From a virus: DNA of 22,092 bases. Location: the IMG/VR virus record IMGVR_UViG_3300030451_006700, positions 1 to 22,092 of that record, one strand, 5' to 3'. Each line of letters starts with the position of its first letter. Positions within the stretch are counted from its first letter, which is position 1. Under the pieces are notes generated by a model. That model was not told the DNA's origin. It saw only the letters and a program-made list of their open reading frames with translations, and made no database searches. Made by a program: the position numbers and the translations under genes. Below, one piece after another: positions 1 through 22,023 of the stretch.

Positions 1-176
1 TTTAATGCATCTTTGATATCTTGTATATCACTCTTCATCTGATCAATTTCATTTTTCTTCTTTTCAGATGCCTTCAGTGTGCGAATATAATTTTCATAGG
101 CAACATCATCACAGTTTACAATCGCACCTGTATTTTCGTCACGATAAAGATTTTTATGCCCTTCAACTCTAATCAT
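1..176 (-). CDS. Small conserved T4-like phage protein, N-terminal part (runs off the left edge)
   Basis: Fifty-eight codons are visible, beginning MIRVEGHKNLYRDENTGAIV, and the frame stays open to the window edge. The protein starts with a short polar segment (residues 1-30). It continues with a highly charged Lys/Glu/Asp-rich stretch (about 35-58, including ASEKKKNEIDQMKSDIQDIK) with heptad-like spacing of I, M and I residues, so a coiled coil is likely. Its ATG overlaps the stop of the large upstream gene in an ATGA arrangement. I see no strong Shine-Dalgarno, so translation is probably coupled. The RVEGHKNLYRDENTGAI opening looks like a small protein of unknown function that I recall from T4-like marine phages; that is memory, not a search. 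The position suggests a late or virion-related role, but function is unknown. The C-terminus lies outside the window. Confidence 0.82.
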   Translation of the reverse strand, partial: MIRVEGHKNLYRDENTGAIVNCDDVAYENYIRTLKASEKKKNEIDQMKSDIQDIKDAL

Positions 177-3100: not shown

Positions 3101-6100
3101 GCCATCTGCAATTAATCTCACATCCTTAACATAAGCAACAGCACCACTTGTCCTTCCAACAAGTTTCATATCCTTCTTAACATATCCAGAGTAACTTCCC
3201 TCTGCCTCCTCTGCTAACGCCTCAGTATCGACATTTAATATAGATGATGTCTGACTGTATATTAATGGTAATCCCTCTGCTGTGCCTCCTGCAGGAACCT
3301 TAGAATAAGGATTTGATAAGTAGGTAGTTGTTGGATTATCGAACTTACCTCTCTTATGATTTGGTTGAGCAAGTCTGAATCTTAATCTTGTATCATTTCC
3401 AATTGTACCAACAACTGTTTCACCGATTTGAAAAACACCATCTGATCCATCAGTGCCATCTGATTTTTTAATTTCTATTAATTTTGGAACTAAGTCAACA
3501 CCCTTCTTATTATCTAAGAAATGATAGTAACGAGTTTTTGGTTTTAAGTTTGATGCAACGAACTCTGTATTTCTTGATCTCATAAATGAGTCAACATCAG
3601 AAGAAATTAATACGTTTCTTACTGATACATCTGTAGTCGTGAATGTATTTCTTGTTGTTTGATTGATATTCACATCTCTTTGTCTACCAGCACGAATTCT
3701 CGTTTCAGTGCTTGTTGTTCCGGCACGGCGACTGTTTGCTTGTCTTCTGTTTACATTTCTCCTGTTAATATCAGCAAAATTAAATCTACTTAAATCAATA
3801 TTTTGATTTAAATTAACTTCATTATTACGAGTTGTTGTTATATTCCTATCCTCTAACTGAACTGTTCTTGTCCAAACATCATTTGTCGGATCTAGAACAA
3901 TGTTTCCAGTATAAACTACAACATGGAAAGGGTTGACATTCTCTACAGTTGTTGCAAATGATTGCTCTAACCAATCAACTTCATCATATTTTAAAGTAAT
4001 TGCTCTTCCGGTTTTTTGTAAATTTGGATCAAGTAATGGGAAATTTCCAGAGTCATTATTTAAATCTGCTGGTGCTAAATCAAGTTTGATTGCGTTTCTC
4101 GATCTGATAGGAACTAATTCGTTTGTATTTGGATTTATCTCTGCAGAAGTAAATGCTCTATTAATAAAGTTAGTTGTAGAAAAATCGTCAACAAAGAAAC
4201 CAGATTTAAATCTATTTCTACCCTCCGCATCTTGAATTTGAAGAGTTTTAGTATCCATCTCAAGTAGTGTAAGAGATGTAGTTGTTTCTAAATTCTTTAC
4301 TCTATCATCAATATCACTGATATCTCTCATTGTATATCTGCGATTATCAATTAATTTAAATATTGCATCTTGTGGATTATAAAGATATGCTGGATATGAA
4401 ATCTGAGCAATTTCTAATAAACCCTCACTCTTTTGTGGTGGTTTTGGATATCTTGCTGAAACACCTTTTTGAACAATAAACTCTTCTTTTGAGTTTAAAT
4501 ATAGTTTATCAATTCTAGGAAGATAATATTCATAATTTACAACTGCACCTTCACTAGTTTTTAAGAATATATTGGACGAACTGTTAAAAGTTCTTGCAGT
4601 AAAATCAAATGGTGATTTATCGGTTGCTGTAAATTCATCAACTCTTGGTCTAAAATCAAGAGTATCTGATGCCTTGTATTGATCAATATAAGGGATATCA
4701 GTGGCATATCTTTCACCATCGTAACTTAATACAGTAAAGACATCTCCTGTATCATCAGATGGAACTGTATAATGATCGAAGATTACCAACAGTTGTCTAG
4801 TTGGTTCTGGAACACCTTGATTTCTAACAATACTTGAAAAGTCATAAAATTCACTATTCTGACCTTTGTCAAGTTTATATGAAGTTGTTAAATCTTTTCT
4901 AACTCCTGTCACTATTAATTCAATAGATGATTCAATATTAGATTCAGTAAATGTAACAACCTCTCCTGTGACAAAAGATGAGTTATTAAGATAAACAATT
5001 TCTATACTATTTGGATCAGCAGAACCGTTAATTTCTGCATTAGTTGATATTACTCTTGCGATAGCATCAGAATCAGATGCAGTTATTATTTCTCCTACTA
5101 CACAATTATTTGAAACTGCAACCGATGCACTAAATTTTAATTTATCTAAAGTTGGTTCGTTTGCATCAACTGATTCATATACTGCAATTAACTTAGCGAC
5201 ATCAGGTCGATTTAAAGATATTCTTTCATCTTGAACTCTTAAACCAAAAAATCTATTGAATAATAATCCATCAGCAAGTGCTGTTGTACCATCTCCAATT
5301 GCTGTGGTTACTCCCGAAATTTCATTTTTAGATTTATTTACAGTTAATTTTTGACTTCGATTGTATATTTTTAACTTACTTTCAATGAAATTTTTCTGAA
5401 CAGTTGTGTTTACAACTATATTATTACTATTTTCTAATCCAGAAATTGTAGCATCATTTCCTGATAATACAAATGTATCATCAGTTACTGTTCCAATTCC
5501 ACCACTGGTATAGTGAACTGAATATCTTTCCTCATCGAATGTTGCCCATGCTGCATCAGTTAAATTTGTCTGAGTTGTTTCTATAACTAATTGATTACCA
5601 GTTACTTCCTCTCCTGTAATCTGCCTACTTAATAATAAATTAGATCTATTTAAATCAATTGAAGAAATATTTTCATCAGGTAAAGGAGCAAACAGACCAG
5701 TTTCATTAGTACGTATAATTGGTACACCTAAATTGACATCAAAAGATCTTGATAGTGTACTAATTCCTGTTGGTAATTCACCTGTAAAAACATCAGTAGT
5801 ACCAGATCCAATCGCTTCTAATGTTATTGACTTACCATTATCATTGACAGAAATAATTCTATTATAAACTTCCTCACCATACTCTGGATTATTATATCTT
5901 ATTATAGAATCTGTTTTAATACCAGTAAAACCTCCACTGGCAAAGTTAGTTGCGGTTGCAATACCAGGTCGAGAACCATCCAAAATTATTTTATTCACAC
6001 CATTAGGTAAAGGTGCCTTTTGAAGAACAGTTCTTGCAAAGAATTGTGGAAAATCTGTTATGCCTGATTGTCCTATAGATTTTATATCCTCTACGCCAAA

Positions 6101-7704: not shown

Positions 7705-9276
7705 TTAGAATTCCAGAATGATTTTAACGTCTTCTTTTTGCCTTGCGTCCCTTGTTACTAGGCCACGATTATCAATATAAATTATTTCACCTGTCTGTTT
7801 ATTTATCTCAGGTTTAGCAAGACCATTTGTGAAATTTACACCCAAATTAACTACCTTATTGCTAACAACTGTAGTGCTACCACTGAAAGATGATATTCCT
7901 ATTCCAAGGGGGTCTACATTTCCCCCGCCTTGTACAAATTCGGTTATTCTACTTTCAGAACTTACTCCAACATAATCTGTTTGATTTGTTGGTGTATCAC
8001 CTCCAAAATACAAAGATCTATCTCTTGAATATTTTAAGACATTAGTCTGTGTATTATATGATGTTACATACCCCTTTGCTGTTCCCTGAGTTATAATACT
8101 TCCAACATTAGGTGTTGTACTAGGATTTCCTGATAATTTCATCGCAAAGGCAGATGAAAAATTTATTTCATCAAAAATTGTATCTTCATCTGCAAATGTT
8201 GAAGGATTTTTAATTATTCCAACTTGAGAAAATTTAGTGGTCGTTGGAAAATCAGGTGTGGAATCATCAAATCTTGTGTAAATTAAAATTTTATCTGCAC
8301 CAAGTTCTGTGTATAAGTCATATCCATGTCCTCTTGATGGAGGAATTATTGGTATTAATTTTGCTCTATTTTCTAATGAGATTGATGTTGTAACCTGAAT
8401 TGGACCTAAGTCTACAATACCGTAAGTATATCCAGTTCCACCACTCGTAACAATTGTTTTTGTTATTTTTCCATTTACATTAACTGTCACATTCACAATT
8501 CCACCTGTTCCATCACCTAAAATATTCAGAGAATGACTACCTTCCTGATAAGAAGAACTATTGGTGCTACCACCATCTTCTATATAAACTTTCTTAATTT
8601 GATTATTGTTTATTCTAGAGTCTCCTGCTTCTCTCACTGCTTGTATTTGAGAATCAGTTGATGTTGACCAGTCATTTGGTAATGCTATAAATTCTGTCGA
8701 ATCAAATTTTATGATATCACTCGGAGAAATTGTATAGAGATATTTCCAAACATATCCATCACCACTTGTACCAGCAGCAGATGGTTCTGTATCAGTAAAG
8801 GTTGGTTCATCAAGTGAGTTACCACCTTTTGCTGAATCACTACCAGGAATTCCTGACGAACCATTATCAATACACAAGTAAACTCTCAAATCACTATTTA
8901 CAACATAATATTTTGAATTATACAAACTTGACTGCTTTGAGTTGGGTGACTGATTAATTATGCTATAATCATGTCGATACATATCGTATCTTGTATTTGC
9001 AACCCAATTATTTCTTTTAACAACTCTTCTTACATTAGCACTAGAAATTTTCTTACCAAATAATATTGTGTCTTTATTATGAGAAAGATTTTGAAAATTA
9101 TCAACTGGATCCGATGGCCAAAAGGTAGAGGTTGTTCTACCAAAACCAGGATTAGTATCGTTGATAGGATTTGATAATCCTAAAAACACATAATAAGAAT
9201 TTGATGAGTCTAATAAAGAGTCAACGAAATTATTTGCATTAAATATTCTAAATTGATCTGTAACTATTGCTGGCAT
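7705..9276 (-). CDS. gp8: Baseplate wedge protein gp8 (T4 gp8 homologue, enlarged)
   Basis: The product has 523 residues; T4 gp8 has about 334. Blocks line up in order with T4 gp8 as I remember it: AIVTDQFR (residues 3-10; T4 AIVTSKFR), VVKRNNWVANTRY (~85-97; T4 VIPRRDWGDTRY), GDGYVWKYLYTI (~172-183; T4 GDGYVWEYLFEI), FSQVGIIKNP (~347-357; T4 FRQISIITNP) and TGEIIYIDNR...VKIILEF at the C-terminus (T4 SGEMIYMENR...INILFTF). In T4, gp8 is a baseplate wedge component joined to gp7 and gp10. The extra length lies before and after the FSQVGIIKNP block, and the first insertion carries a GGTGY repeat (~269-293). The gene follows the gp7-like gene, as in T4. It has its own late promoter 18 nt before the ATG but no clear Shine-Dalgarno. 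Confidence 0.9.
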   Translation of the reverse strand: MPAIVTDQFRIFNANNFVDSLLDSSNSYYVFLGLSNPINDTNPGFGRTTSTFWPSDPVDNFQNLSHNKDTILFGKKISSANVRRVVKRNNWVANTRYDMYRHDYSIINQSPNSKQSSLYNSKYYVVNSDLRVYLCIDNGSSGIPGSDSAKGGNSLDEPTFTDTEPSAAGTSGDGYVWKYLYTISPSDIIKFDSTEFIALPNDWSTSTDSQIQAVREAGDSRINNNQIKKVYIEDGGSTNSSSYQEGSHSLNILGDGTGGIVNVTVNVNGKITKTIVTSGGTGYTYGIVDLGPIQVTTSISLENRAKLIPIIPPSRGHGYDLYTELGADKILIYTRFDDSTPDFPTTTKFSQVGIIKNPSTFADEDTIFDEINFSSAFAMKLSGNPSTTPNVGSIITQGTAKGYVTSYNTQTNVLKYSRDRSLYFGGDTPTNQTDYVGVSSESRITEFVQGGGNVDPLGIGISSFSGSTTVVSNKVVNLGVNFTNGLAKPEINKQTGEIIYIDNRGLVTRDARQKEDVKIILEF

Positions 9277-9306: not shown

Positions 9307-12300
9307 TTATGGAGTCTTAGGTAAAGCACCAGTTTTTCTAAGAGTATAATCTCCACCCGACCTTTGAATTAATGGGAATGTAGATAATCCTGAATTCACT
9401 TCAAATCCTTTAACTGTTAGTGAAATAGGTGAATCAGATCTAGTCAGAGATGATAATTTACCAAATGATAAAGTACCAATGTTGGGTAAAACACCAGTAT
9501 CCAATGAATTATCAGGTGTAGTCACGGTTGCATTACATACTATTTCTGCATTTGAACCGGATTTTGAAATGGATGACACTTGATATATATTATCAAAAAA
9601 TGTTGTTCCAACACCAACTGTCGTTGCTCCACCACTTGTCCGTGATGTAACACCGTGACCATTTGTTGTGTTGCTGACGAATATGTAATTATCGTTAACT
9701 AAACTATCAAAATTACCTCCATCAGTTCTCGATGCATAGAATTTAATAGTTGTGTTACCACTTCCACCTACTTCTATTCTAGTGATAGTTGCAGAAAAAC
9801 CAGATACTGCTTGAACTTTAATGATTTCAGTTTCTGTAACAGGAGGTTGAACAAGAACAGTAGGAGCAATTGTATACCCAAAACCTGCATTAGTAATTGT
9901 AACTCCATTGATACCTCCACTATTCACGGTTACTGTGGCAGTGGCAGTTGTTCCAACTCCAACTCCAATTGATGGTGGAGCACTTATGCTTATTGTTGGT
10001 GCAGTTGTATAATTGCTTCCACTTGAAGCAATACTTATCGCATCTACCTGACCATTTGAAACTGTTGCTGATAGTATACCAACTGTTGGCACAGTAGCAT
10101 TAGAAATTAATTTAACAAAAAAGTCGGGACTTCCTTCACTCTCATAATTAAAGAAATCAGCATTATCAACAAATATGTCATTGGAACCAGCACCTGAAGA
10201 AGTAATATTTCTTATTACTTTTGCAGTAGGATATATTTGAGTTGCGATAGAATCTCTTGTTTTAGGTACAATTCTACCATTAATAATTTTATCATTCTTT
10301 TGCTTGTATACATTTAATGGTTTGAAATTAATTTCATCTATACCCTGTCCTTCATAAACATTAGTTTCAAATCTATCTTTGCTGGTGAGTTCAAATACAG
10401 TTCTTTCATCTTGTGAAATGGAAGTGTTTATTTCTGGAGTTCTTATTATTTGAACATTATCACCCTCTTCTAAGGTTTTGTTGATGTCTGTACTTAGAGC
10501 ACTATCAATTCCAGATGTTCCTTTATACACATAAATTGAAATATCATCATTTTCTGATGGAGCAGTAGTAAATGAAAATACGGTTCCACCTTCAAATTGA
10601 TAGTTTTCACCAGGTCTTTGAACTACACCATTTACAAATATAAGCAATATATTTTGAGCAATAATATCTGAATCATTATCTACTACCACACTCAATAGTT
10701 CTCCATTATAACGTAATGGAAATACTGTTCTAGATCCATTTTGTAGTGGTTTAATTGAATCAATAAAGTCAAATTCACCAAACTGCCAAGATGAGAAATT
10801 ATCTTGATAAATTTCTGAAACTTCAAGAACAAATGGTTCTGCTCTTGTAAAACTCTTGTCAGTAACTAAACCTACCGGTGTAAATTTATCACCCTTTCTG
10901 AAGTTATATCCAGTTCTGCTTAATTCAAAATTTAAAATTCCTGTTGTGGTAACTCCACTTACACTAATTAATGCACCAATACCAGTTTCAGGACCTGTTC
11001 CAAATCCAACTCTTGAAATACCTTCAATAGACATATTACTATATGATGGACTAGGAACAAATATTTCAGGTTCTTTGTAATTCTTTCCACCATCAACAAT
11101 ATTAAATGATAGTGTGCCACCAATTCCGATTGTGGTAGTAATTTTTGCTCCTGAACCTACATTTGCACCCACATTTACTGTAATTGTCTCAGCATTATAT
11201 GATAAAATGGAAGTAGATATACCTGCAACAGGATCTGTTGATCTTGGATATGGATGAATTGTTGAATAATTATCTTTTGAACAAGCGAATGATATGGAAC
11301 CTGTTGCGATCTGAACTGTATTACTATCTGTTAATCCATGTGTTTGAATTCCAGTGCCACTTATGAATAGGACTAAATCTCCTGTCACTGGATCATATGA
11401 TGCATCAGATGGGGTAAACACTATTCCTGTATTTGCTGTCACCGCGTTTGCATCTGCACTTATAAAATCATGTTCATAACCAGGATCAAATACTGTTGCT
11501 GCGACTGATACACCATTTGTTGTAACACCAGTATTGTATCCTGAACCAAACGTAAGATTACCAAACCAATTTTTTACAGTTCCTCCACCAACAAATGTGT
11601 GTGGGATTGTGCTTGGTCCAACTTGTGTCTTAAATGTATTTGTTGATGATATTGATACCACAGAGAACTTATCGCCTATTGTTCCATCGGGGAAAATAGT
11701 AGTCGTAACACCTGCATGAGGAGCAGCACAACTAAACTCTAAATTAGATAGAAAAACTTCATCGGCATAACCCATTCTCAAATTATGCTTACCAACAGTT
11801 GTAATTTCTAAAACTCCAGTATTATTATCATAAGAAGCAGTTGAAATATTATTAGATGCACCACTATATGCAACTCCCACTATAGATGTGATTGTTCCTC
11901 CGGTAGATATCTGAGGTTTTACAATTGCCGGAACTAAAGGTGCATAACCCAATCCACCTGAAGATCCAAGAGATACAATTACACCACCTCTAGGTAAATC
12001 ATTTTGATTCACATCCGTATCATTTGTAATAATATCTCCGTCTGCCACTGTTGTTATTCCAGAGAAAATCACAGTTGTTGTAGACACTCCAGAGGTAACA
12101 TTTTCAACAACTTTATAATTACCCCTTGAATTATTAACAGTTGATGGACTTTGGAATATATTATTAATAAAGAGAATACCGTTTCCTCCAGTATTTCCAA
12201 TACCTGATGTTGATATTCCTCCTGATTTTAATTCAAAATTCGTTCCAATACCTGTAAATTTATTTGAAATATCATCATATATTCTATTCGTGCTATAATC

Positions 12301-15300
12301 ATTTCTCAAATAAACTCTTCCCTCAAAATCAGACCTTGCTGGTGGCAAATTAAATTCATCGACATCTATTGAATTGTTACCCCTTGGTGCCTCAGTGAAG
12401 TGAATTTCTTTACCAACAATATTATAAGAACCTTTAAAAATAGTAACATTACTTGAATTGCTATGAGATGCAGCAGAACTTCCAACATAACCTCTCTGAA
12501 CATTAATTATTGGAAATGTCCCTAAACCACTGATAGGTCCTGTGGTTGATGTTCCGATTCCTACATTTGTAATTCTTACAAACTCATCATCTATTTTTGC
12601 AAGATCCTCAAGATTTATAGATGATATTCCACTCAAACTGAATATTGTTGAGGCAGCACTTATATTTCCATTTAGTTGATAAACTAAATCTGTTTGAGCG
12701 ATTGGATGTTGAACTAGACCATCAATTGTAATTAATGCCTTTGAAAGACCTTTTGCCATTTCAAATTGATGATTATTACCCTCTCCCGCATCGACTAGTG
12801 TTACAGCATTTCCTCCTCTTGTTGTTGATATTGAGAATTGATCATCAGTAGTTCTAATTGCAAACACTGAAGTAGGTAGTGGAGAAGTATTACTATCACC
12901 ATCATGTTTAAACATCATCGCTGTTGAACCAACTCCAACGAAAGATGCTTGGGGTGTGTAAATTAACTCTTCGTTTGTCCTAAAGAAATGATCCTTGATT
13001 GTGAATGTTTTACCAGTTCCAATATTTACAATTGATGTATTTGTTGGATTGAATGTTTTAGCAAAAATTGGAGTGTCGTTACTTGTTAACTCAAAGTTTC
13101 TTCTGTTTATTCGATCACCATTTATAGCATTGAAGAAATTTAAATTTGAGGACTGAGTAAGTTTTCCAAAGACTAATGGATTTGGATAATTAACAGATCC
13201 CAATTTAGTTTTTTCATCAGTATCTGAATAAAATACCTCATTTAAAGATCTTACTGTTGTTATACCAGTGGTAATATCTGGTATGAATTGTAGAATAAAA
13301 TTATCACCCTCAAATTTTGCATGGAAGGTTCCTATTCCAAGGGGAGGATTAGCAGAATTTTCTACTATACCATTTTCTATTGACAGATACTCACTTGAAC
13401 TAGTAAATATTTCAGTGCCATTATGTATAACATATACCTGATGCAATGCTTCTGATGTTGCAGTCGCTACATGAGCAGTCGATTTTAAAGCAATAAATTT
13501 ATTTTTATCTAGTGATGCAATCGTACTTATTCCTGCTTTCTGTTCAAATTTAGATTCAACTAACTGAGTTCTTTCACTCTCATCTGCTTGACCTGGTGCC
13601 AAGAATCTATATGTTCCAATACCAGCAGTAATACTGTTAAATCCAATGATACTTGATCTAACTCTTATTGGATTAGATCTTGTATTAGTTACATTAAATG
13701 ATATAATACTATTACCAATTCCAGAAAGTGATGGACTAAATGTTGCTAAGAAATTTGAGCTAAATGTTCCTTGATTTGAATCAAAATATGATTCTGTAAA
13801 ATATGTGTTTGTTGCATCTCTTCCAACCAGATGTTCAACGTAATTCATATCATTAGTCACAGTATCAGTGACTTGTGTTTTAATAAAGAGACTATCAGAT
13901 GCAAATGTACTGATAATTGAAGAGGTTGTTCCTACTCCAACATTAACAACTGATCCTGTTATATCTGCAAAACCAAATGAACTTGTTCCTGTTCCAGTTA
14001 AAGTTGTATTGAATTTAGTTTCAATTTGTTTAATATCATAATCAACATCAAATTTAAATTCATCTGATGGTGTAAATCTTAAATTATTTCTACCTGATTC
14101 GCTTACTAATTTAAAGTTTGTGAAATCAGATTCTGAACTCAACTTACTCTTTTCAAGAAGATATGAACCTGAATTATTATTTAAAATAATTAATTCTGCA
14201 ATTTGTGTCTGAGTGTTATCGGGATTTTTAACTAATGTAAGAACTCTATTCAAACCATCAGATGGTTGAACTTGTATAATATCTAAGAACGTATTTGGAT
14301 CACTATTTAAATTTGAATAACGTGAACTAATGTCATCAATATTCAAAACATTATTTGATTTTGCTACAATAAAATCTGTTAACTTAACTTTTTGAAGTTC
14401 TATAAACTTAGATTTCGATCTATCTAAATTTAAATCGGTCGTACCAGTTCCGACAAATATATCTCTTGCATTGTCAAAATTGTATATTGTGTCTACTCTT
14501 AATATCTCAGCAAATGTTGGTAAAACATCCAAGAGGGTTGTTACTTTTGCACTTCCATCTACTGGAAAGGCACTTGAGGTGGATGTTATTCCAGTATCTG
14601 AGAAATTTTTAAATCCTGATGTATGGACTAAATTATTAACAGGACTCTTCAGATCATTCCATTCAATTGGACTTTGAATTGAGTATGATAGATTCTGATA
14701 GTAATCATTATCAGGTAAAACTTGAATATCTTCGTTTAATTTTCCAACATTAGTTTCCCAACCTAAATCTTTAATCAGTGAATAATCAACTTCAAATTGA
14801 CCTTTGTTAAGGAATATATTAGTTGATTTTGCTCTGTTTCTGGAGATAGATCCAATTAAAATGTCATCCTCATTTAAATTATCTAGACCTTGCAACTTAA
14901 CAAAATTTTCACCCGATTCAACAACTGTTAAATCTGTTTCAACATCATTAATAATAATTTTTTCACCAATTGTAAAACCTGCTTCTTGTAAATTTAAATT
15001 GAATTTTGGATAAACATTTGAGTTTATAATATCTGCAAATCCTCCAACTGATGTGACAGCAACACCGGTGTTTGTGGTATATTCTGAAACATCGATAGTT
15101 ATTTTATCTAATGCTCCAGTTGTGTCTATACCAACTACTGATAAAAACTTATATCCATAATCAGAGGAGTTAAATCCAGATCCTGCAGCTCCAACTTTTT
15201 GCAATCCTTCAATAAAAACTGAATCGCCAACTTCAAAAGGATTATTTACATATCCTAACGCAGGTGTTGTTATAAAGACATCAAAGGTTGAGGTATTAGC

Positions 15301-18300
15301 AGAAGAATTAACTTTTTGAATACTTACACCGTTTGTATTACTAGTTGCAGCGATGGCAACATTTCCAACAGATATGCCAGTTGGTGATTTCTCAATATTT
15401 ACTCCCAATAATGAAGATCCAGATGTAATGGTTGGTGATGATAAGGTTGCAGTAATTAAACCATCATCAAACGGTACTCCTGTTTCTGTATCGACAACTA
15501 TCAGTTTTGGTGGAGTAATATAATTAGCACCACCATCAGTAACTTCTACACTTAAAATGGACTTTGATCCTCTCAATTGAACAAATTTAGGTAGAAGTGC
15601 TTCTGGTTGCAAAGTAGGATCAGAAGGATACTCAAAACCTTCGTTGATCACTCTCACATTTCTAATATTGCCAACATTATTTGATTTAGTTAATACATTT
15701 ACATCAACAACCGAAGTTGTTCCAACGCTTACAAAAGTGGGTAATTTTTTATAGTTTGAACCACCTGAAACTATTTTAACAGAATTTATAGGACCTGTTA
15801 CATTTTCTGATGTTGTGCTATAGAATAATTGAGAAGAATTTAATTTGTCAGTAATAGTTCTTAATGGTTCATCTACAGTATTAAAAGTAAATGTTTGCAA
15901 ACCAACGTTTGATATTTTAAAGGTGCCATTATAATTATTTTTTACAAATTCAATTTCAGAGTAATTTCTTACAGTATTATCAGCAGTTACTGCTACACCT
16001 AATTTTTCAATATTATAATACAATCTGTTAGGAATTTCATCATCATATGTTAACGTAAATTTGGAATTTGCCTCCCCTGCAGTTATGATACCTACTGGTG
16101 TATTAAAACTTTGACTAGATCCAGTAGACACAAATTCGTTTTTGAATTCTTTATCATGATAAACCTTAAATTTGTATCCAGAGAGAGATGAATCTGAGGT
16201 GTTGAATATTATATTGTTACTTTTCTCTACAAATATTTTTGGATTTATTTTAGAAAATGTATGTATTCCAGATCCTGTTGTTGATGTGATAGCAACGACT
16301 ATTGGAGGATTTGATGTAGCATTTTCAAAGGAGTCACATAAATTAAAAGTTCTATCATCAATAACACTAACAAAGTAATTACTATTACCTAAACCTATAG
16401 GAATATTTGTTGAAACAAGATTTACTTTTTGTCCTGTTGCAAAATTATGATTTTCTAGTGTTATGACATTTGCACCTGTTTGAAAACCAACAGCAGGTAA
16501 GGATGTTGTAATACCCGATGTTGGACATGAAACTGGATCTATAAGTATATTATCGGTTAAAGGATCTCTGCTAATTATAACCTCAGATAATGTTCCAATA
16601 CCTACTGATGTATTTGAAATTACATTTATTTTAATTAAATCGTTATCTTTTAGTTGATGGGAACTAGAACCTAATGAAACAACATTTTTTATATTTTTTA
16701 CACTTACCTTTCTTTCATTAAAATTAGATTTAAATGAATATGTATCTTTATCAGCAACTGCTGAACCACTAATTTCATCGTGGAAAAATACCTCAGATCC
16801 TCCAATAATTGTTTTTATTCCAATAACATTTTTGTTTTTATTGACTGCAAAAACAGTTGATGGCATTGAGGTAATTGTACCATCAGGTGTATCTGAATAA
16901 CCTATTGGATTCCCATCATTTATTACTGTTAATTTTTGATTTGTACTATACGGATGATTTTCTAGATATATTCCTTTAAATGGAATTGTTCTTGTAATTT
17001 TTGTCTCACCGAATGAAAATTCTACCAATCTTGATTGACCAGCAGTAGTACCAAATCCAACCGATTTAATAGGATTAAAAAATACTTTTTGATTTACTTT
17101 AGAGTCAAAATTGTTAACAGATTTTTCAATTGTGAATGAATCTGGAACGATATAAAGAGGTGTTGTTGCTGTGTGTGCTAATCCAGTATCACCTCTCTCA
17201 ACCGTAATTATGTTCGGTTGATCATATGTGTTTAAGACAGTAAGTGTCTCAATCCCTGCACGTATTTTGTCTCCGACCTTTACATACCTTGCAATATTAG
17301 AATAAATTTCAGTTGTCGCAGCACCTGCATTTGAAATTATAGGAGAGATGGCAGAAGAAACAACTGATGAAACACCTATAATATATGATCCATTTATATG
17401 TGAAAGTGATGATGTCAAACCTGATAAAACCACCAAATCACCATCAACTAAATTATGGAAATTTGGAGTTGTTATCCTTAAATTATCATTATCTTCTTTT
17501 GTGATTGTAGATTGATTATAAGTTAATGTATTTGATGTAATACTTGAAATAGAAACACCTTTAATTGATTCAACTTTTGCGATGAGACCGTCACCACCAG
17601 TTCCTGTATTATCAAAGTTTAATATATCACCAACTTTCTGATTAGTTCCATCTTCGATTATCTCAATTTTATTAATAGATCCAGACTCAACTGTCTCTAT
17701 TTCAATTTTTTGAGAATTTAAAGCATCCGATTCAGTAATGAAATCATTTCCAGCATCGCTCTCAGTTACATTATATGGAAAAGTATTTCTTCTTAGAGAT
17801 GAATTAAAAAAGTCAAATGACTGGTTAATTGATAAATTATCTTTTTCTAATTTTGATCTATACTTATTACCTATAAAGTAAGGGAACGCTGGAGCAAATC
17901 TTCCTGATGTAATAATTCCTGTCGCATGATATGCATAAACACCATTCGGATAATCATCATTTATTTCGTATCTACCATTAAATTCATCCAAATCACCACT
18001 ACCATCAAAAATATAATCTTCAATGAAAAATCCAGTGACAAATCCAACATTAGGTCTATCAATTACAGAGTTATCATCTAATTTATATCCACTCTTTAAT
18101 AACTTAATTACATTAGTTTTCTTTTCAGGATCTTCATATCCATATGGACCATATATTGGATTTCCATCATATGCCCATCCGATAATTTTTGATACATTAG
18201 TTCCATCGTCTTTGAATGAGTCACCAGAATAACCACTTACAACATTTTTCAATATACCTTCATGTTCTTCTAATCTACTAGAACTTGGTAAAGAATATTT

Positions 18301-21300
18301 CAAGTTATTATTTACATTGAGAGATCTAACATTTGCATTTATAACACCACCAATACCAGATGGAGTGACACGAATTGAAGTGGTTGACTCAGAATACCCA
18401 ATTCCAGCAGATATGACTTCCACACGATTCACTGAACCAGTTAGTTCCCCATCCAATTCATTCATTACAACTCTTAATTTTGCACCATTACCAATTCCTA
18501 AACTATCAATTACTTCTACCACAGGTGTTGAAAAGAATTTAGATCCTGAGTTGCCGATAGAAACTGTTGATATTCCACCGGTGATTGAATTAATAATTGG
18601 TTTTAATTCAGGTATTAAACCATCAGAACCATTTTTTATTTTTACGATTGGACTGTTTTCGAAATTTAAAATACTAGATCCATAACCTGTTCCCTTTTCA
18701 AGTAAATATATGTCACTTATTTCACCTTTTACAACAGGTGTGATATTTGCAATAACCTTCTCTGACCCAAATGTACCAATACCCAAATATTCAACTGATG
18801 CCACTATATCTGGATATTTAAATATTTGTGTGCCTATACCTGTTGACTCAAAGTTAACAAATTTTTTCTGATTAAAGTTAACTAATGATGTTCCACCTAT
18901 ACCAGCATCAGATAACTTAAATGAATTATCATCTACCTTTGTAATAATATATTGTTGATTTGGTTCTGTTGACAATCCTGTAATTGTAGTGCCATCATGT
19001 TTATAAACGATTTTATCACCATCTTTAAAATTATGATTTTCGAAGTTGATTTTATTGAAAATTGTTGATACATTTGATGGTTGAACTGATAATTTTCTAT
19101 TTTCGTACCCTTCTCCTCCGGAAAGAACGTTCACACTTAGAATAGTATTATTAACAGATCCAACAATAAGTCTTTGAATACCTCCAGCTGTTACTGCAAT
19201 ACCGATTGCCTCTGCTTTATCATTAGTAGCTGCTGCCACACTTTGAGAATTATGAAACCTAACTGTTTTATCATTAACAACACTTACAAAATATTCATTA
19301 TTTGATATAAAATCACCAACAGTTTGACCTATTGAAATTTGTCTATTAGAACTGTATATTACTCTGTCACCTGAATTTAAATTATGACGAGTTCTAAAGG
19401 TAAGAGTTCTTTCAGATTCATCAACACCAAAACCATTAGATGAAGTAAATTCAATAGCGTCGAATACTATTTCTCTTGACCTTTTACCTATAATTGGTTC
19501 TATTACTGCACCTGAACCATTTCCACCAGTAATCCCGATAGAAACTACCCTGTCAATATCAAAGTCTTGCGGATCAACAAAAGCGTCTACTATTTTTCCT
19601 TTAACACAAACTACTGATTTTGCACCAGTCCCAACTCCCTCTTCAATCTCTATCTTAGGTGGATTAATTACATCATATCCACTACCACCCGATAAAACAT
19701 TAAGATTACTTATAGGTCCAAAATATATTTTATCATCTGTCTTATAATTAAATATTTCTACACCATTTATCATTTTACCGATGGTACCTGGTAAAGTTAC
19801 ATCGACATCTCCGTCCTTTAAACTGGGATTTAATGGAAATTTGCTCAATGATTTTGAAGGACTTATTACATTTGATCTTTGCGAATATAAAGTAAATGTA
19901 TGTTCTGCTTCAATTATGTTACCCTCGTTATCTTTTGGAAAGTCTAACTCCAGAGCCGTGCCACTTGGTATAAATGATCTTGATGAATATAATTTCACTT
20001 TGCTGGAGTCTGCATCAGCAATTTCAATAAAATATGCTCCCGTATCTATTCCAACGATTTGAGCAGTTGTACCAACTCCAACTGAATTAAATGTAAGACC
20101 GCTTGATTCATAGAATACCTTATCACCTGTTAATAGTTTAATATTTTTACCTTGCTCATTGATTTGTATTGTTTTAAATTTGCCTGTGCTAACATTTAAA
20201 TCTTGAAATGTGTTAAATGTAATTTTATTCAGTTCAAAATCAATATTTTCAAAAAATGCATCGTCTGATGTAGGAGAATTTTTAGCAGATGGTAAAGAGT
20301 TTGATGCAACATAACCACTATCATCATCAAAGTATACGTTTGTTACATCTGATGTGATATTACCATACTTTAGAGGAACATGATTACTTACTGCTTTGTT
20401 TAGTTTTTTTCTTAAATTTGAATTAGTTCTAACAAGTTTTAAAGTAGTGCCTTGAAATCCACCATCTGGTAAACCTGCGATTTTTATAATTGTATCACTT
20501 AAAACATCTTCTACATATGGTTGGGTATCATTTGCTGATGGGTAAATAATTTCATCAGGTCTGCTTTGATTTACAAACTCTACTTTATCTCCTTTTTTAA
20601 ATATTGACCTGTCAATTTTTTTCTTTAGTGTAAATGTACTACTACCGTCATATTCATCAATTCCTATGAATGAAGATGTATTGTAAATCCAAGAATTTGC
20701 AAAAATCTCTTTATTAGTTTTAATTGTGGGATTCAATACTTTATCACCCAAATTCTTAATTGTAATTACATCCCCTTCGGAAATTATTGCATTTTCTGAT
20801 TTTTGTTTAAATTTTGATAAGATACCTGTAATTCTAAACTCAACTTTTTTTGTAACATCACCATCTTCGTAACCAAAATATATTTCATCTGAGAAAACAC
20901 TATCTGATGTTGAAATTTCAGATTCTACACCTGTGCATCCTAAAAACTGATTTACAGTTTTTTCACTATAAGAAATTGTATTGATGCCAGATAAAACTTT
21001 ACCACTAGAAGGAAATCCAATAGTAGAATCAACTGTAATGACTGAGGATCCAATAGATACATTTTCAATAGATTTACTACTAGGTGTAATCTTGAAATTA
21101 CCCTCTACCAACGATGCACCACTATATCCTATGAAAAGTGAAAATTTAAAGTATTGCTTTCCTTTCCTTGTAAATGGTTCTACCTCAGATACAGATGCTT
21201 GAGTTGATGGATCATTTAATTTTTCTATCTTTTTTATTGTCTGTCCTACTAATCCAATTGGATTTCCTGATAAAACTTCTACTATGACTGTCTCTCTTCT

Positions 21301-22023
21301 TAAATATTCTGCTGCTGATGGTTTGAACAGTAAATCCTCAAGATTTATAATTTTTGGATTTACACCATACAAAACTCGGAATAATATTTTGATTGCGTCA
21401 TCTGTTCCCTTTGTCTCATAGAATGATTTGACTTCTTTAAGAAAATTACCAATATTTAAATTTTTATTAAAATTTAAATTTTCAAAACCTGGTGCAAATG
21501 TGTACTTTATCTTTTTATAAAATTCATTCAAGAATAATGAACTTAAATTTTGGATTGATGAACCTGCTGTATGTACACTAGCATTAGATTTTGTGAATAC
21601 TAACTCTTCTTCATTTAACTCATCATGATAACTCGTTATACCACTAAATCCACGAGTTAAACCTGTAAATGTATTTGAGGTAATACCGGTATATGTTAAG
21701 ATTTCATCATCAATCTTTAGGAGACCATATTTATTGGGAAACCCCTTAGTGCTAGAAACAGTAACTTTGCTAACTTCATCAGTTCCTATATCAATTGACA
21801 AAGTAGTGTCGTTAGATAATTTTTCTGGAGTTAAATTATCAAAATCCAAGTATTGATCTAAATTTTCAGCAATATCTACTACGCCACTTTGAAATTCCTG
21901 TGAAATATAATATTGTTTTAAAAAATCAACAGTCTTCGGACTCTCTTCCAAAATAAAATTTGGAAGTTGAGAAGATACTACATCTTGTATTTTGACTCTC
22001 GATTCAATACCTGTCTGTATCAT
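9307..22023 (-). CDS. gp7: Giant baseplate wedge protein, gp7-like N-terminus with ~3900-residue repeat-rich extension
   Basis: A single uninterrupted frame encodes 4238 residues (roughly 450 kDa); T4 gp7 has 1032. Residues ~1-320 resemble the later part of T4 gp7: SFYETKGTDDAIKILFRVLYG (in two blocks near 190-215), LVGQTI (~255) and GYSGASLVEGNFKI (~300-313) against T4 DFYSTKGIEASYKFLFKVLY, LVGQTI and LLGRLIAGQEVKAE. The rest is Ser/Thr/Asn/Gly-rich and beta-predicted. It is built of GGxGY repeats, HNxxxGDxV repeats, a YHYH-like domain (~1280-1388), three NGVxQxP modules (~3100, 3287, 3797) and many (V/I)GVGTT turns. The C-terminus (STFPLIQRSG...LRKTGALPKTP) resembles the end of marine-phage structural proteins. 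In T4, gp7 pairs with a gp6 dimer in the wedge core, and the position between the putative gene 6 and gene 8 fits this. The start follows AAGAGA. The role of the extension is unknown; a peripheral or fibre-like structure is inferred. Confidence 0.85.
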   Translation of the reverse strand: MIQTGIESRVKIQDVVSSQLPNFILEESPKTVDFLKQYYISQEFQSGVVDIAENLDQYLDFDNLTPEKLSNDTTLSIDIGTDEVSKVTVSSTKGFPNKYGLLKIDDEILTYTGITSNTFTGLTRGFSGITSYHDELNEEELVFTKSNASVHTAGSSIQNLSSLFLNEFYKKIKYTFAPGFENLNFNKNLNIGNFLKEVKSFYETKGTDDAIKILFRVLYGVNPKIINLEDLLFKPSAAEYLRRETVIVEVLSGNPIGLVGQTIKKIEKLNDPSTQASVSEVEPFTRKGKQYFKFSLFIGYSGASLVEGNFKITPSSKSIENVSIGSSVITVDSTIGFPSSGKVLSGINTISYSEKTVNQFLGCTGVESEISTSDSVFSDEIYFGYEDGDVTKKVEFRITGILSKFKQKSENAIISEGDVITIKNLGDKVLNPTIKTNKEIFANSWIYNTSSFIGIDEYDGSSTFTLKKKIDRSIFKKGDKVEFVNQSRPDEIIYPSANDTQPYVEDVLSDTIIKIAGLPDGGFQGTTLKLVRTNSNLRKKLNKAVSNHVPLKYGNITSDVTNVYFDDDSGYVASNSLPSAKNSPTSDDAFFENIDFELNKITFNTFQDLNVSTGKFKTIQINEQGKNIKLLTGDKVFYESSGLTFNSVGVGTTAQIVGIDTGAYFIEIADADSSKVKLYSSRSFIPSGTALELDFPKDNEGNIIEAEHTFTLYSQRSNVISPSKSLSKFPLNPSLKDGDVDVTLPGTIGKMINGVEIFNYKTDDKIYFGPISNLNVLSGGSGYDVINPPKIEIEEGVGTGAKSVVCVKGKIVDAFVDPQDFDIDRVVSIGITGGNGSGAVIEPIIGKRSREIVFDAIEFTSSNGFGVDESERTLTFRTRHNLNSGDRVIYSSNRQISIGQTVGDFISNNEYFVSVVNDKTVRFHNSQSVAAATNDKAEAIGIAVTAGGIQRLIVGSVNNTILSVNVLSGGEGYENRKLSVQPSNVSTIFNKINFENHNFKDGDKIVYKHDGTTITGLSTEPNQQYIITKVDDNSFKLSDAGIGGTSLVNFNQKKFVNFESTGIGTQIFKYPDIVASVEYLGIGTFGSEKVIANITPVVKGEISDIYLLEKGTGYGSSILNFENSPIVKIKNGSDGLIPELKPIINSITGGISTVSIGNSGSKFFSTPVVEVIDSLGIGNGAKLRVVMNELDGELTGSVNRVEVISAGIGYSESTTSIRVTPSGIGGVINANVRSLNVNNNLKYSLPSSSRLEEHEGILKNVVSGYSGDSFKDDGTNVSKIIGWAYDGNPIYGPYGYEDPEKKTNVIKLLKSGYKLDDNSVIDRPNVGFVTGFFIEDYIFDGSGDLDEFNGRYEINDDYPNGVYAYHATGIITSGRFAPAFPYFIGNKYRSKLEKDNLSINQSFDFFNSSLRRNTFPYNVTESDAGNDFITESDALNSQKIEIETVESGSINKIEIIEDGTNQKVGDILNFDNTGTGGDGLIAKVESIKGVSISSITSNTLTYNQSTITKEDNDNLRITTPNFHNLVDGDLVVLSGLTSSLSHINGSYIIGVSSVVSSAISPIISNAGAATTEIYSNIARYVKVGDKIRAGIETLTVLNTYDQPNIITVERGDTGLAHTATTPLYIVPDSFTIEKSVNNFDSKVNQKVFFNPIKSVGFGTTAGQSRLVEFSFGETKITRTIPFKGIYLENHPYSTNQKLTVINDGNPIGYSDTPDGTITSMPSTVFAVNKNKNVIGIKTIIGGSEVFFHDEISGSAVADKDTYSFKSNFNERKVSVKNIKNVVSLGSSSHQLKDNDLIKINVISNTSVGIGTLSEVIISRDPLTDNILIDPVSCPTSGITTSLPAVGFQTGANVITLENHNFATGQKVNLVSTNIPIGLGNSNYFVSVIDDRTFNLCDSFENATSNPPIVVAITSTTGSGIHTFSKINPKIFVEKSNNIIFNTSDSSLSGYKFKVYHDKEFKNEFVSTGSSQSFNTPVGIITAGEANSKFTLTYDDEIPNRLYYNIEKLGVAVTADNTVRNYSEIEFVKNNYNGTFKISNVGLQTFTFNTVDEPLRTITDKLNSSQLFYSTTSENVTGPINSVKIVSGGSNYKKLPTFVSVGTTSVVDVNVLTKSNNVGNIRNVRVINEGFEYPSDPTLQPEALLPKFVQLRGSKSILSVEVTDGGANYITPPKLIVVDTETGVPFDDGLITATLSSPTITSGSSLLGVNIEKSPTGISVGNVAIAATSNTNGVSIQKVNSSANTSTFDVFITTPALGYVNNPFEVGDSVFIEGLQKVGAAGSGFNSSDYGYKFLSVVGIDTTGALDKITIDVSEYTTNTGVAVTSVGGFADIINSNVYPKFNLNLQEAGFTIGEKIIINDVETDLTVVESGENFVKLQGLDNLNEDDILIGSISRNRAKSTNIFLNKGQFEVDYSLIKDLGWETNVGKLNEDIQVLPDNDYYQNLSYSIQSPIEWNDLKSPVNNLVHTSGFKNFSDTGITSTSSAFPVDGSAKVTTLLDVLPTFAEILRVDTIYNFDNARDIFVGTGTTDLNLDRSKSKFIELQKVKLTDFIVAKSNNVLNIDDISSRYSNLNSDPNTFLDIIQVQPSDGLNRVLTLVKNPDNTQTQIAELIILNNNSGSYLLEKSKLSSESDFTNFKLVSESGRNNLRFTPSDEFKFDVDYDIKQIETKFNTTLTGTGTSSFGFADITGSVVNVGVGTTSSIISTFASDSLFIKTQVTDTVTNDMNYVEHLVGRDATNTYFTESYFDSNQGTFSSNFLATFSPSLSGIGNSIISFNVTNTRSNPIRVRSSIIGFNSITAGIGTYRFLAPGQADESERTQLVESKFEQKAGISTIASLDKNKFIALKSTAHVATATSEALHQVYVIHNGTEIFTSSSEYLSIENGIVENSANPPLGIGTFHAKFEGDNFILQFIPDITTGITTVRSLNEVFYSDTDEKTKLGSVNYPNPLVFGKLTQSSNLNFFNAINGDRINRRNFELTSNDTPIFAKTFNPTNTSIVNIGTGKTFTIKDHFFRTNEELIYTPQASFVGVGSTAMMFKHDGDSNTSPLPTSVFAIRTTDDQFSISTTRGGNAVTLVDAGEGNNHQFEMAKGLSKALITIDGLVQHPIAQTDLVYQLNGNISAASTIFSLSGISSINLEDLAKIDDEFVRITNVGIGTSTTGPISGLGTFPIINVQRGYVGSSAASHSNSSNVTIFKGSYNIVGKEIHFTEAPRGNNSIDVDEFNLPPARSDFEGRVYLRNDYSTNRIYDDISNKFTGIGTNFELKSGGISTSGIGNTGGNGILFINNIFQSPSTVNNSRGNYKVVENVTSGVSTTTVIFSGITTVADGDIITNDTDVNQNDLPRGGVIVSLGSSGGLGYAPLVPAIVKPQISTGGTITSIVGVAYSGASNNISTASYDNNTGVLEITTVGKHNLRMGYADEVFLSNLEFSCAAPHAGVTTTIFPDGTIGDKFSVVSISSTNTFKTQVGPSTIPHTFVGGGTVKNWFGNLTFGSGYNTGVTTNGVSVAATVFDPGYEHDFISADANAVTANTGIVFTPSDASYDPVTGDLVLFISGTGIQTHGLTDSNTVQIATGSISFACSKDNYSTIHPYPRSTDPVAGISTSILSYNAETITVNVGANVGSGAKITTTIGIGGTLSFNIVDGGKNYKEPEIFVPSPSYSNMSIEGISRVGFGTGPETGIGALISVSGVTTTGILNFELSRTGYNFRKGDKFTPVGLVTDKSFTRAEPFVLEVSEIYQDNFSSWQFGEFDFIDSIKPLQNGSRTVFPLRYNGELLSVVVDNDSDIIAQNILLIFVNGVVQRPGENYQFEGGTVFSFTTAPSENDDISIYVYKGTSGIDSALSTDINKTLEEGDNVQIIRTPEINTSISQDERTVFELTSKDRFETNVYEGQGIDEINFKPLNVYKQKNDKIINGRIVPKTRDSIATQIYPTAKVIRNITSSGAGSNDIFVDNADFFNYESEGSPDFFVKLISNATVPTVGILSATVSNGQVDAISIASSGSNYTTAPTISISAPPSIGVGVGTTATATVTVNSGGINGVTITNAGFGYTIAPTVLVQPPVTETEIIKVQAVSGFSATITRIEVGGSGNTTIKFYASRTDGGNFDSLVNDNYIFVSNTTNGHGVTSRTSGGATTVGVGTTFFDNIYQVSSISKSGSNAEIVCNATVTTPDNSLDTGVLPNIGTLSFGKLSSLTRSDSPISLTVKGFEVNSGLSTFPLIQRSGGDYTLRKTGALPKTP
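9838..10056 (-). repeat. Tandem GGxGY-type protein repeats near the gp7 C-terminus
   Basis: Two consecutive copies read VDAISIASSGSNYTTAPTIS and INGVTITNAGFGYTIAPTVL. Each has the pattern (I/V)xxVxIxxxGxxYxxxPxVxI. The copies are about 40 residues apart and divergent at DNA level, so this is a protein-level repeat. Confidence 0.7.
10612..10638 (-). repeat. NGVxQxP module (third copy) in gp7
   Basis: FVNGVVQRP (residues 3796-3804), followed by GENYQFEGG and FTTAPSENDDISIYVY, is the common tail-fibre module with a short beta element ending in a 'GDxI' strand. Related copies in the same protein are IDGLVQHP (12703-12726) and FINNIFQSP (12145-12171). Confidence 0.6.
15490..15792 (-). repeat. Cluster of three GGxGY-type protein repeats, middle of gp7
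   Basis: Three copies follow one another: INSVKIVSGGSNYKKLPTFV, IRNVRVINEGFEYPSDPTLQ and ILSVEVTDGGANYITPPKLI. Each gives a beta strand, a Gly turn with an aromatic residue, a Pro and a second strand. The spacing is about 40-45 residues. Confidence 0.7.
16330..16475 (-). repeat. Single HNFxxGQxV module in gp7
   Basis: LENHNFATGQKVNLVSTNIP...SNYFVSVIDDRTFNLCDSFE has the same order of elements as the modules at 18892-19396. Its YFVSV(I/V)xDxT string is especially close to the copy near 19270. Confidence 0.55.
17370..17470 (-). repeat. Single HNLxxGDxV module in gp7
   Basis: PNFHNLVDGDLVVLSGLTSS followed by GSYIIGVSSV is a shorter copy of the HNxxxGDxV module seen at 18892-19396. It lies just after an IxITTPNF strand. 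Confidence 0.5.
17866..18195 (-). other. YHYH-like domain embedded in the gp7-like protein
   Basis: Residues ~1277-1390 contain GWAYDGNPIYGPYGY (1282-1296), then NGRYEINDDYPNGVYAYHAT (H at 1366) and FPYFIG (1380-1385). This matches the YHYH family pattern (a GxxxDGxPIYGP block, then a YxYHAT block and a closing PYxIG). YHYH domains occur in secreted bacterial proteins and in some phage virion proteins, and their biochemical role is not firmly known. It is flanked on both sides by repeat modules of the same protein. Confidence 0.75.
18361..18726 (-). repeat. Cluster of three GGxGY-type protein repeats, N-terminal third of gp7
   Basis: The copies read ISDIYLLEKGTGYGSSILNF, ISTVSIGNSGSKFFSTPVVE and VNRVEVISAGIGYSESTTSI. 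The linkers contain G(I/V)G(N/T)GA-type segments such as LGIGNGAKLRVV. A further copy, LNVLSGGSGYDVINPPKIEI, lies near 19645-19705. Confidence 0.7.
18892..19396 (-). repeat. Two HNxxxGDxV (FCCH-like) modules in gp7
   Basis: RHNLNSGDRVIYSSNRQISI...NNEYFVSVVNDKTVRFHNSQ and ENHNFKDGDKIVYKHDGTTI...NQQYIITKVDDNSFKLSDAG share one pattern: a His-Asn start, GDxVxY, a Gly-rich turn, YxVxxVdxxxFxL, and a variable end. This resembles the small beta-barrel pattern often labelled 'E1 FCCH-like' in phage tail proteins. No ubiquitin function is implied. Confidence 0.6.
21064..22023 (-). other. gp7-homologous core domain of the giant wedge protein
   Basis: These first ~320 residues carry the only segment I can align with T4 gp7. 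They include a helical region beginning QLPNFILEESPKTVDFLKQY, then FLKEVKSFYETKGTDDAIKI, FRVLYG and LVGQTIKKIEKL. In T4 the matching blocks lie in the latter part of gp7, after several other domains; here they lie at the N-terminus. One DDEILTYTG...GLTRG module (~98-133) is embedded within it. Alignment is from memory of T4 gp7 and needs a profile search. Confidence 0.75.
21620..21728 (-). repeat. DDEIxxYTG...TRG module, copy in the gp7 core
   Basis: Residues ~98-135 read LKIDDEILTYTGITSNTFTG, then LTRGFSGITSYHD. The same module, YVKLGDEIISYTGVTAAGFL then LTRGIDNTVAQPHG, occurs in the DUF4815-type protein at 1240-1360. Weaker copies in gp7 are near 12445-12605 (AKIDDEFVRITNVG...QRGYVG...ASH) and 17155-17290 (KVGDKIRAGIETLT...VERGDTGLAH). 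Confidence 0.6.

Follow-up and report, generated by a model that had tools for sequence, protein, structure and literature searches.

The baseplate wedge protein gp7 of bacteriophage T4 (1032 aa; PDB 5IV5, 5HX2) occurs in six copies, lies in the pins together with gp10 and gp11, and has a domain A that swivels outward in the switch, as set out in the text of PMC3004832. In phage XM1 the gp7 orthologue, gp17 (242 aa), is likewise a wedge scaffold, which in the published account joins two gp16 to build the core of the wedge and attaches the spikes via a loop of the helical domain (80-106) and the C-terminus (201-242) (PMC10457771). Another example is the gp7 of P-SSM2 (PSSM2_111), a protein of 5195 aa. 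The gene treated here belongs with the latter and is carried on a stretch of 22,092 nucleotides, hereafter the window (IMG/VR virus record IMGVR_UViG_3300030451_006700, positions 1 to 22,092). A single frame runs on the minus strand from 22023 to 9307 and encodes 4238 aa, with a calculated mass of 456 kDa and without internal stop, in agreement with the preliminary description of this sequence, which had noted 12.7 kb of uninterrupted frame. It is very probable, taking gp7 identity, split core and arms together, that the product of this gene is gp7, which serves as the scaffold of the wedge in contractile-tail baseplates, with a core interrupted by insertions and with additions that would form arms.

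9307..22023, minus strand: giant gp7-type baseplate wedge protein, 4238 aa, stop included in the coordinates (PHROG_2885, 3170 bits, and the neighbouring genes)

The match to PHROG_2885, a family named 'baseplate wedge subunit', has its best stretch between residues 2-3383 and profile positions 2-3327 of 4179. In a one-to-one BLASTP comparison, residues 154-219 matched T4 gp7 680-752 with an E-value of 1.3e-4, and a profile of 42 marine N-termini, compared by HHalign with a profile of T4-family gp7s, aligned residues 200-294 with T4 733-811 (probability 76%, P 2.3e-5), the probability against the single T4 sequence being just 29.7%. This is the profile-profile check of the HHpred type that had been suggested for the N-terminus, and it bears out the N-terminal similarity to T4 gp7; the view of the protein as a gp7 wedge subunit with a huge addition also holds. 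The Pfam family PF23786 (Baseplate_wedge) matched residues 187-222 with 18.9 bits on the whole protein and 23.4 bits on residues 1-480 (E 4.9e-5), under its curated cut-off of 27 bits, and was found at E <= 0.1 in 73 of 81 N-termini. None of the Pfam models Gp7_helical, Gp7_5th and Gp7_6th, which were cut from T4 gp7 and which T4 matches in full, was found in the window at E <= 0.1; since the gp7s of DLP6, S-H34 and P-HM1 miss them too, these models look narrow. The leading ~640 residues of T4 gp7 have no detected counterpart, and only 7 residues precede the core here as against 646 in T4, so the earlier remark that the leading T4 domains are absent stands.

The extent of the core was revealed by three clues from profile libraries. 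The best stretch of phrog_26741 on the window protein (2420-2495) corresponds to the C-terminal part of that profile (376-450 of 497), its best stretch on DLP6 gp7 corresponds to the N-terminal part, and the best stretch of PF23786 on S-H34 gp7 (1850-1891) falls at profile positions 236-281 of 284. Therefore, gp7s small enough to show an unbroken core were sought. Four were used as the seed of a hidden Markov model (HMM) of the ~290-residue core, namely the gp7s of Ochrobactrum phage OC and Desulfovibrio phage 7757 and those of two IMG contigs, which align with each other over ~310 residues as one unbroken unit. Such a compact-core profile was needed because phmmer with the whole window protein gave no match in PDB at E <= 1, and a profile of the marine N-termini gave none at E <= 10. 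On the window protein the model recovers three pieces, the last of which is called block 2 below.

21829..22002, minus strand: gp7 core piece 1, residues 8-65 (HMM positions 7-64, 18.9 bits)
21268..21525, minus strand: gp7 core piece 2, residues 167-252, with the FYETKGT...LFRVLYG block (HMM 66-148, 18.7 bits; PF23786 at 187-222; HHalign to T4 733-811)
14584..14760, minus strand: gp7 core piece 3, residues 2422-2480, LNEDIQVLPDNDYYQNLSYSIQS...VNNLVHTSG (HMM 232-289, 21.3 bits; BLASTP match in 18 of 18 shorter gp7s; weak HHalign match to T4 865-890)

The three pieces are collinear with the model, and the whole protein scores E 1.9e-18 among 39 targets, which include the 4 seed sequences. The best of 300 shuffled proteins reached 3.5 bits, the reversed protein gave no match, and all 300-aa pieces of the window protein from residue 261 on, bar the one with block 2, stayed at or below 0.5 bits. 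By BLASTP, the whole window protein showed a collinear match within 2401-2522 in all 18 shorter gp7s (529-1283 aa); in this small set, E was below 0.05 for 12 of them. The third piece corresponds to about T4 848-891. Searched against all PDB sequences, the four-protein profile found solely T4-type gp7 at E < 0.01, the next entry having E 0.94. T4 gp7 itself was found with E 1e-7 over 647-758 and a weak, non-significant continuation at 848-891, and the gp7 of Klebsiella phage KP1 with E 1.9e-7 in one contiguous alignment of 649-900 with model positions 10-288. Because this alignment runs over both, the two blocks are adjacent in T4-like gp7; in the window, the detected pieces that flank the gap lie 2,169 residues apart. 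Judged from sequence comparison, the core is thus split rather than relocated, as its last piece sits at 2422-2480. The preliminary description had it that solely the first ~320 residues align with T4 gp7, that the core had moved to the N-terminus and that ~3900 new residues all follow it; block 2 overturns these three points, and up to ~2,170 of the new residues lie inside the core.

The additions amount to about 100 residues in a first slot (A), up to ~2,170 in a second (B) and 1,758 after the core.

21526..21828, minus strand: slot A insertion, residues 66-166, with a beta-module at 73-147 (gap between core pieces)
14761..21267, minus strand: slot B insertion, residues 253-2421 at widest (gap between core pieces; domain V may extend into the first ~150 residues)
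9310..14583, minus strand: C-terminal extension, residues 2481-4238 (1,758 residues), after the last core piece

The layout of P-SSM2 gp7 is the same, with the same gene order, a three-piece core, 107 residues in slot A and 2168 in slot B. The two proteins are mostly collinear (37% identity over window residues 2-3557) and differ in the C-terminal extension, of 2655 residues in P-SSM2 against 1758 here. T4 gp7 shares the core at 640-891 (helical part, domain V, HPxGF piece) and the place between gp6 and gp8, but it carries its 646 leading residues before an unsplit core, where the window protein has ~100 and ~2,100 residues inserted into the core and a further 1,758 behind it. The gp7s of Ochrobactrum phage OC (631 aa) and Desulfovibrio phage 7757, both among the seeds, have a one-piece core and lack the insertions. 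The gp7 of Stenotrophomonas phage DLP6 (1288 aa) resembles the window protein in its N-terminal core, its split at slot B and its C-terminal extension; unlike it, slot B holds just 253 residues, slot A is missing and the extension consists of Thr-rich repeats. These repeats take up several hundred residues at the end of that protein (locus L276, 7983-11849).

Relatives of the first 401 residues were found in 462 of 50,697 phage records (E <= 1e-5). By record coordinates, orthologues measure 7312 aa in P-SSM4, 6198 in S-ShM2, 5195 in P-SSM2, 4878 in Sf-CH8, 4446 in P-HM1, 3895 in S-SRM01, 1942 in S-H34, 1288 in DLP6 and 1032 in T4, so that 4238 aa is mid-range and giant size is ordinary for the group. 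The slots were compared in 39 gp7s, dropping matches of 8 bits or less (among these the weak second block of T4); the set was gathered by core similarity, includes near-duplicates and counts T4's own relatives once. Slot B measures 0 in the four seeds and elsewhere 73-87, 143-146, 210-307, 456, 621, 717, 1547 or 2014-2662 residues. In the shorter gp7s the match on its left ends at model positions 208-237 and that on its right begins at 157-228. For the giants, left-hand ends are spread over 139-243 and right-hand starts over 176-232, for which reason the left edge in the window can be placed only to within ~100-150 residues. Nine gp7s have residues in slot A, with 97-120 in 7 of them, 588 in S-ShM2 and 607 in P-SSM4, and the C-terminal extension ranges from 6 to 3717 residues. 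Before the core stand 31 residues or fewer in 37 of the 39, the others being T4 (646) and an IMG ORF without a found start (227); T4, with its leading domains, therefore looks like the exception on this comparison.

The split recurs throughout the long relatives. Among 80 loci, all 38 open reading frames (ORFs) of at least 2700 aa contain block 2 (16.4-32.8 bits) and 37 contain both N-terminal pieces. In six-frame searches of complete genomes with the core profile, the three pieces were found in one ORF in P-SSM2, S-SRM01, Sf-CH8, S-ShM2, P-SSM4, P-HM1, S-H34, Mosig and HTVC008M. No second gp7 was found elsewhere in these nine complete records; one extra weak and partial match lies in a 2479-aa ORF of S-H34 downstream of gp8 (E 0.004, model 147-207). 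A clear gp7 elsewhere in the genome, which had been named beforehand as grounds for giving up the identification, is thus missing in nine complete relatives, whereas the window's own source, a viral record of 24,330 bases, is a 24 kb fragment and cannot decide the matter for its own genome. Two loci deviate in their frames. In S-SKS1 (HQ633071.1; L003, 15992-26183) the pieces of gp7 are divided over two separate reading frames, of 710 and 1113 aa, on either side of a stretch without annotation, a broken gene or a sequencing error, and in one IMG contig (L062, 9992-14551) a stop follows after ~1520 aa, with a block 2 match on the same locus.

Structure models were made for the N-terminal part of the window protein and for a compact gp7. 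The AlphaFold model of residues 1-480 (81 alignment rows) is of moderate quality, with pLDDT 67.6 and pTM 0.37. Foldseek ranked a KP1 chain of gp7 length first (E 4.8e-4) and T4 gp7 chains second and fifth (E 1.3e-3 and 0.019). In VIA-align, residues 239-403 superposed on T4 760-843 (Z 7.8, rmsd 2.6, 80 aligned), a row at rank 8 and not above the noise of the tool. Since T4 766-861 is Pfam Gp7_5th (domain V), which overlaps this stretch, a domain V-like fold is probable on the model.

20815..21309, minus strand: residues 239-403, probable gp7 domain V-like beta-domain with a nested beta-module at 316-387 (VIA-align to T4 760-843)

The VIA-align list is largely taken up by matches to the small beta-barrel module at 312-380, which resembles tail-tube and F1-ATPase barrels; this is a common fold and no function was read from it. 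For the compact gp7 of contig L296 (17 rows), AlphaFold gave pLDDT 55.6 and pTM 0.33, with the core better than the tail. Foldseek placed KP1 and T4 chains of gp7 length at ranks 1-3 (E 5.1e-11, 2.8e-10 and 2.1e-8), 5hx2_A being named gp7, and another phage baseplate at rank 4 (E 0.03). In VIA-align, residues 2-270 of this model covered T4 640-891 with Z 10.2, the next unrelated row having 6.9. Because the rmsd to T4 is near 20 A, the model supports local fold and order only.

Through iterated profile searches, two copies of a small beta-module were recognised in the window protein, at 73-147 in slot A and at 316-387 at the start of slot B, together with five 'HN..GD' modules and eight GGxGY repeat matches, of which two overlap. 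The small beta-module also occurs once in VrlC, and the GGxGY repeat once in gp8, which suggests module exchange among these neighbouring virion genes. The identified modules account for just part of the additions. The commonest break in alignment among relatives falls near residues 3380-3620, and alignment resumes at ~3614-3632. Two sets of matches were set aside: PHROG_460 'head closure Hc2' (best stretch 3958-4066), which overlaps a GGxGY repeat at 3991-4058 of the kind also seen in gp8, and NCBIfam nadE and Pfam WD40_Prp19, both below cut-off.

A further domain of the additions invites a reading in which they are mainly enzymatic.

17920..18204, minus strand: YHYH domain PF14240, residues 1274-1368, in slot B (E 4e-24, 86.1 bits, above the cut-off of 25 bits)

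The available text of PMC7824862 predicts the YHYH domain to be a hydrolase with conserved histidines plus an aspartate, and for tail-linked YHYH domains a metal hydrolase that opens the cell wall has been proposed. The domain recurs in slot B of S-H34, P-HM1, S-SRM01 and Sf-CH8, and one histidine, that of HSP ahead of GWAYDG, is shared by 6 of the 7 rows that reach it. However, that position is valine in the window protein, and none of the histidines is common to all 8 gp7 copies in the alignment, the S-H34 row being the second half only, so that the hydrolase proposal is unsupported for the window version. In place of the Y-H-Y-H after which the domain is named, the window protein has Y-A-Y-H and other copies have Y-A-Y-F, Y-A-Y-Y or Y-C-Y-F, with no canonical YHYH sequence in the alignment, and the domain makes up ~95 of ~3,900 extra residues. 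A mainly enzymatic character of the additions is accordingly improbable.

It is similarly hard to credit that block 2 is a stray duplicated module outside the gp7 core, with the N-terminus alone working as gp7. The overlap of the model across slot B (positions 176-207 in S-ShM2, 200-237 in L303, 157-217 in L295) does suggest a duplicated beta-module near the junction. Against this, each protein has a single good match to core positions ~230-290, any other match to them remaining below 0 bits. All 38 long ORFs retain these positions, as does S-H34, close to its C-terminal end; a split core remains the better account. In S-ShM2 (649-820 and 3413-3535) and L303 (7-236 and 541-638), the stretches to the left and to the right of slot B both match core-model positions ~176-237, as if the slot B insertion had begun from a duplicated beta-module.

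The annotation record bears on a further alternative. P-SSM2 'gp7' (5195 aa), P-HM1 'gp7: baseplate wedge initiator' (4446 aa) and the name of PHROG_2885 itself already connect giant proteins with gp7, and a gp7 row is present in a published table (PMC5349666). What is new is the split core with fixed insertion slots, a description of which was not found in searches of open-access paper listings; the giant size and the gp7 link are not new. In an even-step sample of 60 out of 465 records, 12 carried a gp7 or baseplate-wedge name, and the rest were 'structural', 'hypothetical', 'predicted' or unannotated. The preliminary description was thus right that the link often goes unannotated, with the correction that some relatives already carry both size and name. 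In the record of Ochrobactrum phage OC (L290, 2121-5896), the gp6-like gene and the gp7 gene are both noted as 'T4-like gp7'.

A 2020 comparison, in its available text, calls T4 gp7 absent in pelagi- and cyanomyophages and apparently substituted by VrlC (PMC7029224), and another text places gp7 in the non-cyanophage core as a very divergent protein (PMC3037559). Accordingly, the giant could be a fibre or other structural protein unrelated to gp7, with an N-terminus that resembles gp7 by chance, VrlC (DUF4815) standing in for gp7. The faint single-sequence similarity to T4 and the weak match of the core profile in the S-H34 ORF downstream of gp8 would go with this. On the minus strand, the record reads gp25, gp6, giant gp7, gp8 and a DUF4815 protein.

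Upstream on the record, at or beyond the window edge and cut by the record end: gp25 (PF04965, E 3.6e-12)
Upstream on the record, at or beyond the window edge: gp6 (PF21379, E 6e-17)
7705..9276, minus strand: gp8 baseplate wedge protein, 523 aa (PF09215, E 2e-13; phrog_438)
173..7699, minus strand: DUF4815 (VrlC) protein, 2508 aa (PF16075, E 3e-56; phrog_358)

Pfam thus puts the giant gene at the gp7 place of a gp25-gp6-gp7-gp8 series, an order identical in P-SSM2 and present as gp6-gp7-gp8 in T4. The protein called VrlC, whose HTVC008M version also belongs to phrog_358, adjoins the giant gp7 in the window and in HTVC008M, and gp7 and VrlC are both annotated in DLP6 and phiM12. The core profile, moreover, matches the giant ORF in three collinear pieces in nine complete genomes. 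Among these is HTVC008M, the reference pelagimyophage of PMC7029224, in which the three-piece core lies in a 1016-aa ORF between gp6 and gp8 (NC_020484.1, 33435-36485; L308, 4001-7051). RefSeq labels it 'head closure Hc2', the name of its own PHROG, phrog_3465; phrog_2885 also matches (E 1.1e-38). A GGxGY module in common with phrog_460 may be where this label originated. The gene gp7 is therefore present in ocean phages reported to be without it, which contradicts the 2020 statement, and a chance resemblance is very improbable. An assembly or frameshift artefact fusing several genes, which the fragmentary record and a run of 10 N in gp6 on the same contig might suggest, is already contradicted by collinear long ORFs in complete isolate genomes and on other contigs (L007, L008 and L010, with 90%, 80% and 68% protein identity, collinear across about 3,730 residues) and can be dismissed.

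With gp7 identity and a split core as the preferred reading, a role for the additions can be proposed. They sit at fixed places, namely slot A (core ~65/66), slot B, which parts the beta-domain from the last core piece, and the C-terminal end. Should the core pieces co-fold, the polypeptide of slot B would loop out of the wedge and back into it, giving one arm of about 2,100 residues, with a second arm formed by the ~1,760 residues at the C-terminus. Small beta-modules, some of them also found in gp8 and VrlC, and one YHYH domain would be held on these arms, and six copies, the number in T4, would come to about 2.7 MDa. The docking loop and C-terminus of XM1 gp17 seem comparable, by the description in PMC10457771 only, to slot A and the C-terminal extension. 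Built-in arms are proposed because the additions would sit at a loop and a C-terminus comparable to these spike-docking sites, with slot B at a second loop; XM1 has a separate spike protein where the window protein would have fused arms. Most likely, the wedge-anchored beta-module arms would form an outer skirt and adhesion surface, replacing in part T4 gp10-gp11-gp12 and the separate spikes that dock on gp7 in simple phages. We infer rather than observe the co-folding, the arm shape, the copy number and the adhesion role.

Two further data sets touch this proposal. An orthologue has been detected in virions: for S-CREM2, the available text reports 91 unique virion peptides from ORF122, 'baseplate wedge protein, intermediate' (77594-83407) (PMC10665884), and its orthology is seen from the C-terminal stretch of S-H34 gp7 with block 2, which matches S-CREM2 at 82904-83404. 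Pfam GP11 was found in 0 of 11 non-T4 genomes (T4 itself 1.0e-116), a missed profile match being no proof of absence, and T4_gp9_10_N in 3 of 11 (S-ShM2, P-SSM4, Mosig); these counts fit a partial takeover of the gp10-gp12 role and do not prove it. In P-SSM4, the 7312-aa gp7 is followed immediately by an N-terminal domain of gp9/gp10 type (NC_006884.2, 79118-79330).

Several observations weigh against the explanation as a whole. The direct similarity of T4 to block 2 is weak (HMM 0.2 bits, E 0.87; HHalign P 0.007, probability 5%), for which reason the link is carried by the bridges of the compact gp7s and KP1. The BLASTP comparison with the shorter gp7s also gave matches outside the blocks, the best with L295 at window residues 1441-1489 (E 0.001), which are probably shared modules, and the 38 long ORFs are close relatives of one query and not independent events. 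The gp7 matches of the 1-480 model are marginal, with unrelated chains at ranks 3 and 4; both AlphaFold models are poor, and neither spans block 1 and block 2 of the window together. The proposed replacement of gp10-gp12 is just partly backed, T4_gp9_10_N being in 3 of 11 genomes.

The reading of a split core settles the conflict between the gp7 annotated in some cyanophages and the gp7 reported absent in the 2020 comparison, and it helps to explain both why the gene was taken to be missing from these phages and labels such as 'structural protein', 'hypothetical' and 'head closure Hc2'. It also furnishes a graded series, in which one wedge protein goes from ~450 to ~7,300 residues by additions at fixed places. 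T4-like cyanophages and pelagiphages are abundant in the ocean, and host recognition by their baseplates is poorly known. A tentative extension, possible but rather unlikely as it stands, is that gp7 itself is the adsorption apparatus in marine T4-like phages, the loops and end that carry separate spikes in simple phages having become giant adhesive arms, of which each virion would bear six sets; the slot B arm, tethered at both ends in the core, would then pass host contact directly into the (gp6)2-gp7 bundle, the trigger of contraction. In essence, the split core predicts that residues 170-250 pack with 2422-2480, and it marks the arm residues that would be candidates for contact with the host.

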